From Acidimicrobiia bacterium (lineage in GTDB: Bacteria > Actinomycetota > Acidimicrobiia > IMCC26256 > DASPTH01): a stretch of 52,125 nt of DNA. Made by a program: the position numbers and the translations under genes. The stretch covers positions 1-52,125 of the forward strand of contig JBBDHW010000002.1 of assembly GCA_040880805.1 (NCBI GenBank), in the 5' to 3' direction. Shown here piece after piece: positions 45,138 to 51,802 of the stretch; position 1 is the first letter of the stretch; every line of letters starts with the position of its first letter. The notes beneath the pieces were generated by a model that saw only the letters and a list, made by a program, of their open reading frames with translations, made no database searches and was not told the DNA's origin.

Positions 45138-45662
45138 GTGGCGAACGCGCAGCCCCGAGCCGACGTCGTGTTGATCCGATGGCCCGAAGAAGGGGCGCGT
45201 CTCGAGAGCCTTCGGGCAACGGGTGCTCCCCGGCTGCTGCTCGTGGGCGAGAGTCTCGCGGCGCCCTCCTCGATCGATCCCCTCGAGGATTGGATTCGGC
45301 TGCCGGCCGCGGACGGCGACCTTCGTGCGCGCGTGGCCACGCTCCAGGCCCGCGGCAAAGCAGTCACCGCACCGACGGTCGACGCCGACGGGCTGCTCCG
45401 GCATCGCAAACGTTGGGTGACGCTATCGCCCGTCGAGCGAGCCCTCGTTGCAGCGATGGTCGACCGGTTCGGCGCGGTGGTCGGCCGTGACACGCTCGTG
45501 CGCCGGGCATGGCCGGGCGCCAGCCCCACTCGAAACGCACTCGACGTGCACATGCTGCGTCTCCGCCGTCGCATCTCGTCCCTGGGACTCGAGGTGCGCA
45601 CCGTCCGTGCCCGGGGGTACCTACTGCAAGAGGTCGAGGGGCGCGAGCCCGCCGGCGCCTGA
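45138..45662 (+). CDS. Winged-helix DNA-binding protein (OmpR/GlnR-like)
   Basis: A 174-residue regulator. The N-terminal ~85 residues look like a shortened receiver without the phosphorylation aspartates (PRADVVLIRWPEEG, RLLLVGESL). The C-terminal part is an OmpR/PhoB-type winged helix: TLSPVERALVAAMVDRFG, LDVHMLRLRRRISSLG and VRTVRARGYLLQ. The layout resembles atypical orphan regulators such as GlnR. GTG 45138 is preferred since TACGGT lies six bases upstream. The gene precedes the antiporter fusion by 14 bases and is probably co-transcribed with it. Confidence 0.82.
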   Translation: MANAQPRADVVLIRWPEEGARLESLRATGAPRLLLVGESLAAPSSIDPLEDWIRLPAADGDLRARVATLQARGKAVTAPTVDADGLLRHRKRWVTLSPVERALVAAMVDRFGAVVGRDTLVRRAWPGASPTRNALDVHMLRLRRRISSLGLEVRTVRARGYLLQEVEGREPAGA

Positions 45663-45676
45663 ATCAGGCGTAGTCG

Positions 45677-48379
45677 ATGGACGTCACCGGGGTTCTCCTC
45701 GACATCCTCGTCGTGCTCATCGCGGCGAAGCTCGCGGCGGAGATCGCCGAGCGCATCAACGTGCCTGCGGTGGTCGGCGAGATCGTCGCCGGTGTGATCA
45801 TCGGCCCCTCGGTGCTCGCTCTCGTCTCGTCCAACGAGACGTTGAGCGTCCTCGGCGAGCTGGGCGTGATCCTGCTCCTGCTCGCGGTCGGTATGGAGAT
45901 GGATCTGGGCGAGCTCGGCGCGGTCGGTCGTGCGTCGATGTCGGTCGCCGTGATCGGCGTGATCGTCCCGATGGTGGGCGGGTTCGTCGTTGCGAGCGCA
46001 CTGGGGCACAGCGACAACCAGTCGCTCTTCATCGGCGCCGCGCTCTCGGCGACGAGCGTCGGCATCACCGCGCGCGTGTTCAGCGACCTGCGCGCGCTCG
46101 CGACCGTAGAGGCGCGGACGGTGCTCGGCGCCGCGGTGGCGGACGACGTGCTCGGCCTCGTGATCCTCACCGTCGTCGTGCGCCTTGTCTCGGAAGGTTC
46201 CGTGTCGGTGCTCGACGTCGCGGGAATCCTGCTCGTCGCGATCGCGTTCCTCGTGCTCACCGTGGCACTCGGGTCGCGATTCGCACCGGGATTGTTCCAG
46301 TTCCTCGACCGGCACGCGCGGTCGGCGGGCACGCTCGTCGCGCTCGCGCTGGCCTTCACCCTGGCGTTGGCGGAGCTGGCCGATGCCGCGCAGCTTGCCC
46401 CGATCGTGGGCGCGTTCGTCGCCGGGCTCGCGCTCTCCGGGAGCTCTGCCGCCGAGCGGATCCAGCGCGAGCTCGCGCCTGTCGGCCACCTCTTCATTCC
46501 CGTGTTCTTCCTTCAGATCGGGATCGACGTGAATGTGGACGACTTCATTCGTCCCGAGGTGCTCCGGATCGCGGGCGCGCTGCTCGCAGTGGCGGTGATC
46601 GCCAAGGTGGTGGCTGCGGTGGGCGCCCTCGGAGCGCCCGGCGACAAGCGCCTCATCGGCATCGGGATGATCCCGCGCGGTGAGGTAGGGCTGATCTTCG
46701 CCACCATCGGCCTGCGCGAGGGCATTCTCGGCGGCAACCTCTATGCCGCGCTGCTGCTCGTGGTGCTCGCGACCACCTTGGTGACGCCCCCGCTGCTGCG
46801 CTGGCGTCTCCTCCAACTCCGTGCCGGGCAGAGCGCACGCGCCGACAGCAGCGCGCCCGAGCCCGAGGGGGGATGGTTGCGGCGCCATGACGGCGCCATC
46901 GACCTTGCGGCGGATCCTCCGGCGCAGCTCGCGTTGCATGTCGCGTTCGACGCCGCGCTCGCCATCGCGAGCGGTGCCCGTCCGGGGTCGAAGCTGCTCG
47001 ATTGGCTCGGAGTGTGGAGTGACACGCCGTTGCGGTTCGATGCCGCGGCCACGAAGAAGCTCTTCTCCGTTCTGGTCGACGGCGACCCGCGTGCCTGGCG
47101 GTTCCTCGAGACTACGGGAGTGCTGGAGCGTGCGCTTCCCGAGCTTGCCGACGCGGTTCGCCGCCGTCGCGACGATCCGTTCCTTCTCGATCCCGCGCAT
47201 GTCCTGCGGTTTGCGCTCGTCGAACGCATCCGCGAGCTCATCGACGCCGATCCCGTGGCCGCGGAGGAGCACGCGCGCCTCGAACATCCGGAGTGGCTGT
47301 TGCTCGCAGCGCTCATCCTCGAGACTGCCGGCGACGACTCGTCACCGGTAGAGCTTGCGCGCCGAATTGTTCACCGTCTCGACCTCGGTGCGGCTGCGGA
47401 ACAGGAGATCGCGTTGCTCGTGGGCGATTCGGTTCTGCTGCGGGGAGCCGCGCGCGAGGTCGACGGGCTCGTCGAGGAGCGGGTGTACCCGATCGCCACG
47501 CACCTCGAGCGTCCCGAGCGTGCCCGCGCGCTCTACCTGCTCACGCTCGCACTCGGTGACCTCGAACCGTGGGACCGCGAGCGCCTCGACGAGCTGTACA
47601 AGCTCGTGCTCGACCTGCTCGAGCAACCTGAAGTCACGGGGCTCGAGGCGCGCAACCTGATCGAGCGGCGCCGCGCCGAGGCGCTCCGGCTCGCGCAGGA
47701 CGGCCGCGCCGTGGCCGAGCGGATCCAGCACGCGCCGCGTGAGCTTCTGCTCATGCAGGAAGCACGCGACATCGCGCGACAGGCGAAGCTGCTCGAGCCG
47801 CTTCCCGCACGTGGGCGAGCGCGCGTCGCCGTACGTCCGCTCGACGACGGTGAGTGGGGGATCGACGTTGCGTCCCGTGATCGTCCGGGCTTGCTCGCGA
47901 CCGTCGCGGGCGTGCTCTCGCACCACGGCCTCGACATCCTGGACGCGGTCGTCGCGACCTGGGGCGACGGCGGCGCACTCGATTCGTTCCGCGTGCGCGG
48001 GACGTCGTCGCGCACCACGCCACCAAATTCGGAGGGGCTCGAGTCGTCGATCGTCACCGCATTCGATGCGCCTCTCGAGTCGCCGCCCAACCCCGACGCG
48101 GAGTTGTACTTCGACGACCACTCGTCGCCGTGGTACACGCTCTGCGAGGTCCGTAGCCCCGACCACCGGGGGCTGCTGCACGACCTGGCCGCGGGGATCT
48201 CGTCGGCGCGCGCCAACGTGCACATGGCGCGGCTCGCCACCATCGCGGGGAACGCGGTCGACCGCTTCGAGCTCACCGACCGGAACGGCCGCAAGCTCGA
48301 CGACGCGATGGAGGCCATGGTGGTCCGCGCGATCCGTGAAGGCGTGCGCCGCCGGCGCCTTCCGAGCTTGCGCCGCTGA
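45677..48379 (+). CDS. CPA2 cation/proton antiporter fused to a GlnD-like degenerate-HD and double-ACT module
   Basis: A 900-residue fusion. Residues 1-~385 form a CPA2 sodium or potassium/proton antiporter with about a dozen helices; the ion-site aspartate pair is D156-D157 (VADDVLG), and IPRGEVGLIF is the later conserved segment. The cytoplasmic remainder resembles the C-terminal two thirds of the PII uridylyltransferase GlnD. An HD-like helical part (~460-690; FLETTGVLERALPELADAV) has lost the metal-binding HD residues (ALILETAGDD where LLHDIGKG is usual). Two ACT domains begin near 726 (DRPGLLATVAGVLSHHG) and 819 (DHRGLLHDLAAGISSAR). No nucleotidyltransferase domain is present. A small-molecule-gated exchanger is the likely role. 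Confidence 0.85.
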   Translation: MDVTGVLLDILVVLIAAKLAAEIAERINVPAVVGEIVAGVIIGPSVLALVSSNETLSVLGELGVILLLLAVGMEMDLGELGAVGRASMSVAVIGVIVPMVGGFVVASALGHSDNQSLFIGAALSATSVGITARVFSDLRALATVEARTVLGAAVADDVLGLVILTVVVRLVSEGSVSVLDVAGILLVAIAFLVLTVALGSRFAPGLFQFLDRHARSAGTLVALALAFTLALAELADAAQLAPIVGAFVAGLALSGSSAAERIQRELAPVGHLFIPVFFLQIGIDVNVDDFIRPEVLRIAGALLAVAVIAKVVAAVGALGAPGDKRLIGIGMIPRGEVGLIFATIGLREGILGGNLYAALLLVVLATTLVTPPLLRWRLLQLRAGQSARADSSAPEPEGGWLRRHDGAIDLAADPPAQLALHVAFDAALAIASGARPGSKLLDWLGVWSDTPLRFDAAATKKLFSVLVDGDPRAWRFLETTGVLERALPELADAVRRRRDDPFLLDPAHVLRFALVERIRELIDADPVAAEEHARLEHPEWLLLAALILETAGDDSSPVELARRIVHRLDLGAAAEQEIALLVGDSVLLRGAAREVDGLVEERVYPIATHLERPERARALYLLTLALGDLEPWDRERLDELYKLVLDLLEQPEVTGLEARNLIERRRAEALRLAQDGRAVAERIQHAPRELLLMQEARDIARQAKLLEPLPARGRARVAVRPLDDGEWGIDVASRDRPGLLATVAGVLSHHGLDILDAVVATWGDGGALDSFRVRGTSSRTTPPNSEGLESSIVTAFDAPLESPPNPDAELYFDDHSSPWYTLCEVRSPDHRGLLHDLAAGISSARANVHMARLATIAGNAVDRFELTDRNGRKLDDAMEAMVVRAIREGVRRRRLPSLRR

Positions 48380-48383
48380 CCTG

Positions 48384-48442
48384 CTCCGCGGACTGGCTCC
48401 GCGGACTGGCTCCGCGGACTGGCTCCGCGGACTGGCTCCGCG
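48384..48442 (+). repeat. 13-bp tandem repeat
   Basis: Four and a half head-to-tail copies of CTCCGCGGACTGG, identical to one another, directly after the antiporter stop codon and ending 15 bases before the hydantoinase A start. The perfect identity suggests recent slippage; copy number may vary between strains. Confidence 0.9.
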
Positions 48443-48457
48443 TGCGAACCTTGGTCC

Positions 48458-50228
48458 GTGCGCATCGGGGTGGACGCGGGCGGGACGTTTACCGACCTGG
48501 TCGGTGACGACGGGTCGGTCGTGAAGGTCGCGTCGACGCCGGCCGATCCTGCCCTTGCGATCGGTGAAGCCATCTCGCGGGTCGCGGCTTCAGCACGAGC
48601 TGTTGGCGCACGGGACGACGGTGGCCACCAACGCGTTGCTCGAGCACAATGTTGGGCGCGTGGCGCTCGTCGCGACGCGAGGCTTCTCGGATGTGATCGA
48701 GATCGCGCGGCAGGCGCGGCCCTCGCTCTACGACCAACACGTCGATCGATCACCACCGCTCGTTCCGCGCGAGTCGCGTTTCGAGGTGGGCGGGCGACTC
48801 GACGGATCGGGTTCCGAAGTGGAGGCGTTCGACGGCCACGTTCCCGATATCGATGGTGTCGATGCGGTGGCGGTGTGTCTGCTGCACGCCGATCTCGATT
48901 CGTCGCACGAGCGCGCGGTCGCGCGAGCGCTTGTGGCGCAGGGACTCGACGTTGTGTGCTCACACGAGGTCTCACCCGAGTTCCGCGAGTACGAACGTAT
49001 GGTCACAACCGTTGTGGACGCCGCGCTCCGCCCGGTCTGCCGCGCGTACCTCCTCGGGCTCGGGTCGCTGGCAAGTGAGGTCTTGGTGATGACGTCGGCG
49101 GGCGGGCTCGTACCGCTCGAGGACGCGGTGACGCGGCCGGCTTCACTGTTGTTGTCGGGTCCCGTTGCCGGCGTGCGTGCGGCGGCCGTCGTCGCGGAGG
49201 CGTGCGGCTTTCCCGATGCGGTGTCGTTCGACATGGGCGGGACGAGCACCGACGTGTGCCTCGTTCGCGACGGTGCGCCGGACCCCGCGCCGGCGCTCGC
49301 TATCGCCGGGTACCCGATCCGGCTGCCCGCGGTCGCGGTGCACACGATCGGCGCGGGAGGCGGCTCGATCGCGCGGCTCGACAACGGCGGCGCGCTCGTG
49401 GTCGGCCCGCGCAGCGCCGGCGCGCGGCCGGGTCCGGCTTGCTACGGGCTTGGTGGTGAGCACGCGACGGTGACCGACGCCGACGTCGTGCTGGGCCGGA
49501 TTCCGGCCGAGACCGCCTTTGCCGCGCTCGGCCGTATCGATGCCGTCGCCGCGCGACGGGCGCTCGACGGCGCCGGAGTAGCCGCGGAGGGTGTCGTGGC
49601 CGTGGTGGACGCGTCGATGGAGCGCGCCGTCCGCGTCGTGACGGTCGAGCAGGGCGTCGATCCGCGCGACCTCGCGCTCGTTGCCTTCGGCGGCGCCGGC
49701 CCGCTGCACGCGTGCGGGGTGGCCGATGCTCTCGGGATGCGCACAGTGATCATTCCGCCCCACGCCGGCGTGTTCTCGGCGGTGGGGCTCGTGTCCGCGC
49801 CCCGGCGACGCGAGCTGGTCAAGACGTGGGCGACTCCCGCGTCGGTGGCAGGTCTCGACGGTGCCCTTGATACGCTCGGGCGCGACGCGTCGGCGGCGGT
49901 CGGTGGCGCCGAGCTCGTCGAGACCTTCGTCGACTGCCGGTACGAGGGTCAGAGCCACGAGCTCACCGTGCACCGCCCGGCCGGATTCCCCGCGGAACAC
50001 GAGCGGCGGAACGGCTTCGCGCGGCCCGACGCGCCGGTGGAGGTCGTCGCGCTCCGAGCGCGCGCGTCGCGCGCCGCGCCGCTGACCGTCGAACAACTCC
50101 CCGCAGTCGTGCGCCCGCGCGTCAAAGGGCCCGAGGTTGTGATCGAGCCCGACTGCAGTGTGTGGGTTCCCGACGGCTGGGTCGCCGAGCCTGGCGCGCT
50201 CGGCGCGTGGGTGATGGTGCGCGCATGA
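48458..50228 (+). pseudogene. Hydantoinase A/oxoprolinase subunit, frameshifted
   Basis: The N-terminus MRIGVDAGGTFTDLVGDDGS in one frame is the ATP-binding start of HyuA. From about 48585 the protein continues in the +1 frame with LQHELLAHGTTVATNALLE and runs to 50228, including SFDMGGTSTDV, GAGGGSIARLDNG and AFGGAGPLHA. Removing one G from the GCGG at ~48584-48587 would join the halves at a natural length (ISRVA then LQHELLAHG). The gene is thus either a fresh frameshift or a sequencing/assembly error. The intact enzyme would, with the next gene, open 5-oxoproline or hydantoin-like rings with ATP. It overlaps hyuB by four bases. Confidence 0.82.
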
Positions 50229-51802
50229 ACGCCGCCGAGCTCCAGATCCTGATCTCGCGGCTCACCGGCGTTGCGGAGGAGATGGGCGCGGTCCTGCGAC
50301 GCGCCGCCTACAGCCCGAACATCAAGGAGCGCGCCGACTGCTCCGCAGCATTGTTCACCGCAGCCGGGGAGCTGCTGGTGCAGGCGGAGCACATCCCGGT
50401 GCATCTCGGTTCGATGCCCGCGTCGGTAGCGGCTGCGATCGCGGCGGTCGGCGGTGAACCGCGACCCGGCGACGAGATCGTGCTCAACGACCCGTTTGCT
50501 GGGGGAACGCACCTCAACGACGTCACCCTCGTCTCCCCGTGCTTCGTGCACGGCGAGCTTGTCGGTTGGGTGGCGAACCGTGCACACCACGCCGATCTGG
50601 GAGGGATGGCCCCCGGATCGATGCCGCCCGAGGCAACCGAGATCTATCAGGAGGGGCTTCGCATCCCACCCGTCCGCCTCGACGACTCGGTCATCGAGAT
50701 CCTGGTCGCGAGCTCGCGCACACCAACCGAGCGTTCCGGCGACCTCGACGCGCAGCGGGGCGCCAACCGTGTCGGCGTCGAGCGCATGCGCGCCGTTCTC
50801 GAAGCATTGGGCCTCGAAGCATTGAGCGTCGAAGGGCCGGGTTTGGCCGAGCCGCTCGACGAGATCGTCGCCTACGGCGAACGCCGGATGCGGGCGGCGC
50901 TGGCTGCCTTGCCGGACGGCGAATGGCGCTTCGAGGACGTGCTCGACTCGGCCGGCCCCCGGCCGGCGCAGCAGTCCCCGACGCGCATCGTGGTCGCGTT
51001 GTCGGTGCGTGGCGATCGCGCGTCGTTCGACTTCACGGGCACCGATACTCAGCGCGCGGGAAACGTGAACGCGGTCGAGGCCGTGACTGTGAGCGCCGTC
51101 GCATTTGCGCTGCGCGCCGCGACGGATCCGACGATCCCCGCGAATGGGGGCGCGATGCGGCCCGTGCGCGTGATCGCGCCACCGGGCACCGTCGTGGCGG
51201 CCATCGCGCCGGTGGCCGTCGGCGCCGGGAACGTCGAGGTGAGCCAGCGCGTCGCCGATGTGTGCCTCGGCGCGCTCGCGCAGGTTCTCCCGGGGCACGT
51301 CGGCGCCGCGAACCAGGGCACGATGAACAACGTGCTGCTCGGTGGAGATGGATGGGTGTATTACGAGACCATCGGCGGCGGGCAAGGTGCGCGTCCGTGG
51401 GCCGACGGCATGAGCGGCGTACACACTGCGATGACGAATACGCGGGACACTCCGGTGGAGGCGCTCGAACGCGAGTTGCCGCTCCGTATCCGGCGCTACT
51501 CGCTCCGCCGCGGGAGCGGTGGTGCCGGGGCGTACATCGGAGGCGACGGCATCGACCGCGAGATCGAGATGCTCGACGACGTGACGGTGTCGCTGGTGAC
51601 CGAACGACGCGACCGGGCACCGTGGGGGCTCGACGGCGGCGCGCCCGGCGCGACGGGCGAGAACTGGCTCCTTCCCGGCGGCGAGGAGTTCGAGGCCCGG
51701 CGCGTGCCCGACAAGTGCACGCTTCAGCTTCGCGCGGGCGACGTGCTGCGGATCAGGACGCCGGGTGGCGGCGGGTACGGACGCGCACCCAAAGCCGGAT
51801 GA
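50225..51802 (+). CDS. Hydantoinase B/oxoprolinase family protein
   Basis: A 525-residue partner of hydantoinase A. Characteristic segments are ISRLTGVAEEMGAVLRRAAYSPNIKERADCS (read as two adjoining pieces), GDEIVLNDPFAGGTHLNDVTL, NRAHHADLGGMAPGSMP, GTMNNVLLGG and the C-terminal RTPGGGGYG. ATG at 50225 overlaps the HyuA stop (ATGA). The exact substrate (oxoproline, hydantoin or acetophenone-like) is unknown. The gene is intact, unlike its partner. Confidence 0.9.
   Translation: MNAAELQILISRLTGVAEEMGAVLRRAAYSPNIKERADCSAALFTAAGELLVQAEHIPVHLGSMPASVAAAIAAVGGEPRPGDEIVLNDPFAGGTHLNDVTLVSPCFVHGELVGWVANRAHHADLGGMAPGSMPPEATEIYQEGLRIPPVRLDDSVIEILVASSRTPTERSGDLDAQRGANRVGVERMRAVLEALGLEALSVEGPGLAEPLDEIVAYGERRMRAALAALPDGEWRFEDVLDSAGPRPAQQSPTRIVVALSVRGDRASFDFTGTDTQRAGNVNAVEAVTVSAVAFALRAATDPTIPANGGAMRPVRVIAPPGTVVAAIAPVAVGAGNVEVSQRVADVCLGALAQVLPGHVGAANQGTMNNVLLGGDGWVYYETIGGGQGARPWADGMSGVHTAMTNTRDTPVEALERELPLRIRRYSLRRGSGGAGAYIGGDGIDREIEMLDDVTVSLVTERRDRAPWGLDGGAPGATGENWLLPGGEEFEARRVPDKCTLQLRAGDVLRIRTPGGGGYGRAPKAG

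Follow-up and report, generated by a model that had tools for sequence, protein, structure and literature searches.

Ligand-gated CPA2 exchangers with RCK domains are already known. Among them, the K+/H+ exchangers KefC and KefB join a CPA2 membrane domain with a QD ion-site motif to a C-terminal cytoplasmic RCK domain that acts as the ligand-binding sensor. It has been described that KefC is inhibited via this C-terminal domain, which touches the transporter (PMC11150392). NapA, a CPA2 Na+/H+ antiporter from Thermus, has no cytoplasmic sensor domain. As regards ion coupling, an aspartate and a lysine at the DD/K places (D6-D7/K8 of the CPA motif) denote electrogenic CPA2 exchangers, and the Na+ type is recognised by a non-polar residue at the fourth position of the unwound TM4 segment (PMC6181914). 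At the level of nitrogen sensing, GlnD is regulated by glutamine (PMC4285133), and its ACT domains are considered to be glutamine sensors; a glycine in their first beta-alpha loop, conserved in GlnD, lies where PGDH binds serine (PMC3173338). In actinobacteria, glnD is located within an amtB-glnK-glnD operon (PMC4285133). GlnD-type ACT domains without a transferase also exist in plant ACR proteins (PMC3173338), for example ACR11, a two-ACT-domain protein of the chloroplast that lacks a transporter domain. No precedent for an antiporter with a GlnD or ACT regulatory domain was found in the open-access literature, which likewise yielded nothing useful on the ammonium antiporter AmhT, and we found in it no earlier report of a CPA2 exchanger carrying a GlnD sensor.

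Architecture of the fusion protein

Such an arrangement is present in an uncultivated actinobacterium, in a stretch of 52,125 nucleotides that was analysed as a whole (hereafter the window). An open reading frame at 45677-48379 (+), with an ATG start and zero internal stops, encodes 900 amino acids in which a NapA-type CPA2 antiporter is followed by the C-terminal half of GlnD, as defined by domain matches and full-length homologues. The original prediction had read this frame as a single antiporter protein with a D156-D157 pair, continued by a region in the GlnD order from which the nucleotidyltransferase and the HD metal residues were missing, and the open reading frame together with the Pfam, TIGR01693 and NapA matches described below bore this reading out.

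The antiporter domain occupies residues 7-377 (45695-46807, (+)) and is supported by Pfam, a NapA profile, Foldseek and residue conservation. Pfam assigns residues 18-375 to Na_H_Exchanger (E 2.7e-62), and residues 7-377 match the solved NapA chain 4bwz (E 3.8e-60), while the best Foldseek neighbour of the membrane part is NapA 5bz2 (TM 0.91 by target length), followed by KefC. Like NapA, the fusion has a whole membrane domain with the DD motif and the TM11 lysine; it shares with KefC and KefB the CPA2 domain and a C-terminal cytoplasmic ligand-binding domain, putative in this case, but differs from them in having DD instead of QD at the ion site and the GlnD order of HD, ACT and ACT instead of an RCK sensor, and no Pfam match to an RCK/KTN domain was found in it. 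The predicted aspartate pair is present and, together with K310, R334 and E336, invariant across 27 of 27 fusions. The intact ion-site residues D156-D157-K310 are best explained by an active NapA-type cation/proton antiporter. Its TM4 segment reads A125-T-S-V128 and coexists with the D-D/K ion site, a motif that fits the Na+ rule (PMC6181914) and suggests an electrogenic exchanger of Na+, or another cation, for H+, with NH4+ or K+ as candidate alternatives to Na+.

The GlnD-derived module comprises residues about 396-890 (46862-48346, (+)), as delimited by TIGR01693, hhalign, the column test and AlphaFold2. Residues 449-888 match positions 369-847 of TIGR01693 UTase_glnD, the profile of the [protein-PII] uridylyl/adenylyltransferase GlnD (E 3.7e-34), Pfam detects ACT in two stretches of the C-terminal half (E 1.4e-11), and the family alignment of this half aligns with the true GlnD of the window's own genome (hhalign probability 99.5%, E 1.2e-22); the domain search proposed for the C-terminus thus returned significant GlnD and ACT matches. 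The GlnD match starts only past the place of the transferase, and the antiporter precedes it, in keeping with the predicted absence of that domain. The score of the fusion against TIGR01693 is 118.1 bits, against a curated equivalog cut-off of 519.4, and therefore the protein is not a GlnD. Like GlnD, it displays an HD-like helical domain and then two ACT domains with their loop residues kept, but it lacks the nucleotidyltransferase and the HD catalytic residues and is joined to a membrane antiporter.

The fate of the two parts of the module is different. The helical domain, of the uridylyl-removing HD type (residues 456-706, 47042-47794, (+)), is degenerate: six catalytic His/Asp columns that are conserved in 29-30 of 30 GlnDs are kept in only 0-2 of 32 fusion modules (0, 0, 1, 1, 0 and 2 at alignment columns 127, 132, 134, 180, 190 and 222), as foreseen for the HD metal residues, and the HD-pair aspartate still aligns in 25 of the 32. 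Residual GlnD enzyme activity was rejected, since the transferase is missing and the HD catalytic residues are gone. ACT domain 1 (residues 715-795, 47819-48061, (+)), identified by Pfam, columns and AlphaFold2, carries the loop D735-R-P-G738-L-L, with D735 in 32/32 modules and G738 in 28/32. ACT domain 2 (residues 809-888, 48101-48340, (+)), supported by the same three sources, carries D829-H-R-G832-L-L, with D829 in 31/32 and G832 in 30/32. Further ACT columns are equally kept (A851 in 32 modules, D862 in 30, F864 in 32 and K873 in 31), and within the loops residues 736-737 and 830-831 are variable. This loss of HD columns with retention of most ACT columns indicates that the enzyme is dead and that the sensor loop residues are under constraint.

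Structure prediction, another of the checks proposed with the original prediction, gave a helical domain followed by two beta-alpha-beta ACT units (AlphaFold2, module alone: mean pLDDT 90.8, pTM 0.85); for the full-length protein, modelled with 27 family members, mean pLDDT was 83.9. By Foldseek, the helical part of the module model resembles the tRNA-processing enzymes 3wfp and 3wfr, and the ACT part resembles proteins with ACT domains in tandem, SerB2 and the glycine-cleavage repressor among them, as would be expected from a GlnD half; PDB sequence searches turned up no solved GlnD. Among the Foldseek neighbours are proteins of other pathways that are regulated by amino acids, such as SerB2, aspartate kinase and threonine dehydratase. 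ACT domains bind many amino acids. Given this variety of ligands and the variable loop positions, the module might sense a non-amino-acid signal or an amino acid unrelated to nitrogen status, a reading that we regard as very unlikely because the descent from GlnD and the linkage to amt and PII genes described below point to nitrogen.

The GlnD-derived half might also be a structural or vestigial tail, needed for dimerisation, stability or anchoring, with no ligand gating of transport. KefC constructs without the C-terminal domain aggregate (PMC11150392), an indication that a tail of this kind can be required to keep the protein stable. In line with a tail, sequence divergence is faster in the module than in the antiporter, with pairwise identities of about 0.38-0.42 and 0.60, respectively, and no ACT domains are encoded at five related loci. 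These antiporters of the fusion family have a shortened C-terminus; three of them are still located beside an Amt gene (L144:7723-9501, L145:7369-9147 and L137:7435-9417) and the other two are L155:4012-6201 and L156:6062-8017. They may represent ungated forms; some lineages can thus do without ACT sensing, and these loci weigh most heavily against an essential sensor. However, the retention of ACT loop residues in 28-32 of 32 modules after the loss of the HD catalytic residues is a contrast unexpected for a vestige, and both ACT domains fold with high confidence in AlphaFold2, so that a mere tail is an unlikely explanation.

Origin and distribution of the fusion

An exact-peptide scan of one genome per species, covering 84,980 species and constituting the whole coverage outside Actinobacteria, recovered six full-length relatives (L004-L009). 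The only one with a non-actinobacterial title (L008, labelled 'Acidobacteria') groups inside the fusion family. Searches of the window's phylum and class added more. After removal of duplicates, 30 ACT-bearing fusion loci were collected, mostly from the window's class and some of them from fragmented metagenome assemblies, a number that answers the question of spread raised with the original prediction. Within the window's class, the fusion was detected in 25 of 296 sampled genomes from many families, counting two truncated copies, and one family of another class (f24) carries it as well. In the module profile search of this class sample, nearly all the fusions scored E 1e-96 or better, the two truncated copies being weaker, whereas true GlnDs ranged from about E 1e-74 down to the cut-off of 1e-25. 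In one genome (G369), an antiporter end lies near a GlnD match on one contig and a module end lies beside Amt on another, which suggests a single fusion gene cut by a contig break.

In a tree of 62 modules, the fusions form one clade (100/97) against 30 GlnDs, and in the antiporter tree their membrane halves likewise group together (99/97), apart from 21 solo antiporters. One clade for each half argues for one ancient fusion event, the simplest reading of these sequences for all the loci. An assembly chimera absent from relatives had been named as an outcome fatal to the original prediction, and a chance read-through would be an artefact of similar kind. Full-length fusions occur instead in many other genomes: about 30 relatives share the identical junction, both halves have a single origin and the frame has no internal stop. 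No evidence supporting an artefact was found, and its probability is practically nil.

A stand-alone relative of the module was also observed. L029 (1447-2844, (-), in genome G042) is placed between the fusion clade and the GlnDs in the module tree and represents a soluble relative of the sensor module; like the latter, it has a degenerate HD and two ACT domains without a transferase, but it has no antiporter domain and no antiporter gene alongside. It adjoins a ROK-type sugar-kinase gene, identified by reading the sequence. By profile score, the GlnDs of family f87 (L064-L067, 215-246 bits) are among those nearest the fusion module, and their transferase and HD motifs are intact.

Ammonium transporters, PII proteins and the upstream regulator

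Like glnD, the fusion keeps company with amt and glnK. In a clustering of the genes around 27 fusion loci, Ammonium_transp (Pfam, E about 1e-100) directly neighbours most fusions and PII genes (E 1.9e-31) appear in several of the operons. Of the 30 full-length fusion loci, 19 have Amt as an immediate neighbour or one gene further off; among the remaining 11, one has PII adjacent (L129) and 10 have neither. PII genes are found in or next to the fusion operons of L005-L008, L078, L086, L088 and L129. Gene order varies: in L005 and L007 it is regulator-fusion-amt-glnK, followed by glnD on the opposite strand, in L082 regulator-amt-fusion and in L086 fusion-PII-amt. This linkage, which was not available to the original prediction, supports its proposal of a nitrogen connection. 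It is seen in two bacterial classes and extends to the deep f24 branch (L071, L072). The fusion loci without linkage are those of the window's clade and L073, yet L125 and L126 keep Amt within the window's clade, a confinement which argues that the loss of amt linkage is secondary.

The window's genome contains an ordinary amt-glnK-glnD cluster (G000:C55) and a second Amt away from the fusion (G000:C62, L117). The latter, an ortholog of the fusion-adjacent Amts, falls in an 18-member Amt clade (100/100); 14 of the members are fusion-adjacent, and the remaining four belong to genomes from the window's clade. Within the class sample, this type of Amt is associated with the fusion, being present in 15 of 25 fusion genomes and in 21 of 271 others (Fisher p 1.4e-9, uncorrected for phylogeny).

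The presence of PII genes in or near several fusion operons raises the question of how the module would receive its signal. GlnD uses PII as its substrate, and control of membrane transport proteins by PII has been described (PMC4285133); the dead HD might accordingly serve as a docking site for PII (GlnK), placing the antiporter under PII control instead of direct ligand binding. Nevertheless, three near-complete genomes (G145, 98%; G188, 97%; G465, 96% complete) carry the fusion and Amt but no PII and no true GlnD. A PII-dependent mechanism therefore cannot be general, and docking as the sole mechanism, weakened by these genomes, appears quite unlikely; the same genomes argue for direct sensing.

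Upstream of the fusion, at a distance of 14 bp, lies a short PhoB/OmpR-type winged-helix regulator (45138-45662, (+); GTG start chosen by homology) that matches Pfam Trans_reg_C (E 1.9e-12). This gene had been called GlnR-like, a name of which the PhoB/OmpR winged helix stood and the GlnR identity was not established: its N-terminal part of about 70-100 residues gives no Response_reg match in Pfam, and other PhoB/OmpR proteins head the results of a PDB profile search. Homologues of this regulator precede the fusion in the window's clade and the amt-fusion pair in L082, and they flank PII/Amt genes without a fusion in L132, L141 and L147; this company of amt and PII genes makes a nitrogen link of the regulator plausible. 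A sigma-70 promoter scan gave no candidate.

Downstream, four to five tandem copies of a short, GGCTCCGCGGACT-like unit of about 14 bases (about 48380-48441) lie between the fusion stop and a hydantoinase/oxoprolinase A gene (48458-50228, (+)). This gene is split over two frames, with Hydant_A_N positions 1-51 in one and 58-172 in the other, and is therefore frameshifted by error or decay; hydantoinase B (50162-51802) is whole.

Candidate mechanism of gating and its meaning

Taken as a whole, the fusion is probably an active NapA-type antiporter that uses a GlnD-derived pseudo-enzyme as its sensor, likely gated by glutamine and partnered with Amt. The descent from GlnD and the conserved ACT loop residues make gating by glutamine, or by a similar amino acid, plausible. 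Glutamine or a related amino acid would bind the two ACT domains, and the ligand-bound pair would bring the dead HD-like domain up against the transporter or draw it away. The altered contact between module and transporter could then switch transport on or, with the opposite sign of gating, off, in a manner comparable to the RCK domains of KefC with AMP and glutathione. In the cell, the exchanger may serve ammonium uptake by Amt, so that ion/proton exchange would follow nitrogen status in parallel to the control of Amt by GlnD-GlnK. A bolder and tentative version, possible rather than probable, is that of an exchanger class in which a captured GlnD sensor lets intracellular glutamine gate transport directly and which is equipped with its own Amt. 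In the genomes devoid of PII and GlnD, such an exchanger would be the sole GlnD-type nitrogen sensor; the cation that it exports might even be ammonium itself, in which case the protein would act as an ammonium relief valve.

If glutamine is indeed sensed, nitrogen status would directly control an ion exchanger without the participation of PII, in bacteria that use Amt for ammonium, and the module would offer a small and separable system for learning how GlnD-type ACT domains read glutamine. Through the fusion, cells may thereby couple their ion or pH balance directly to the supply of nitrogen.
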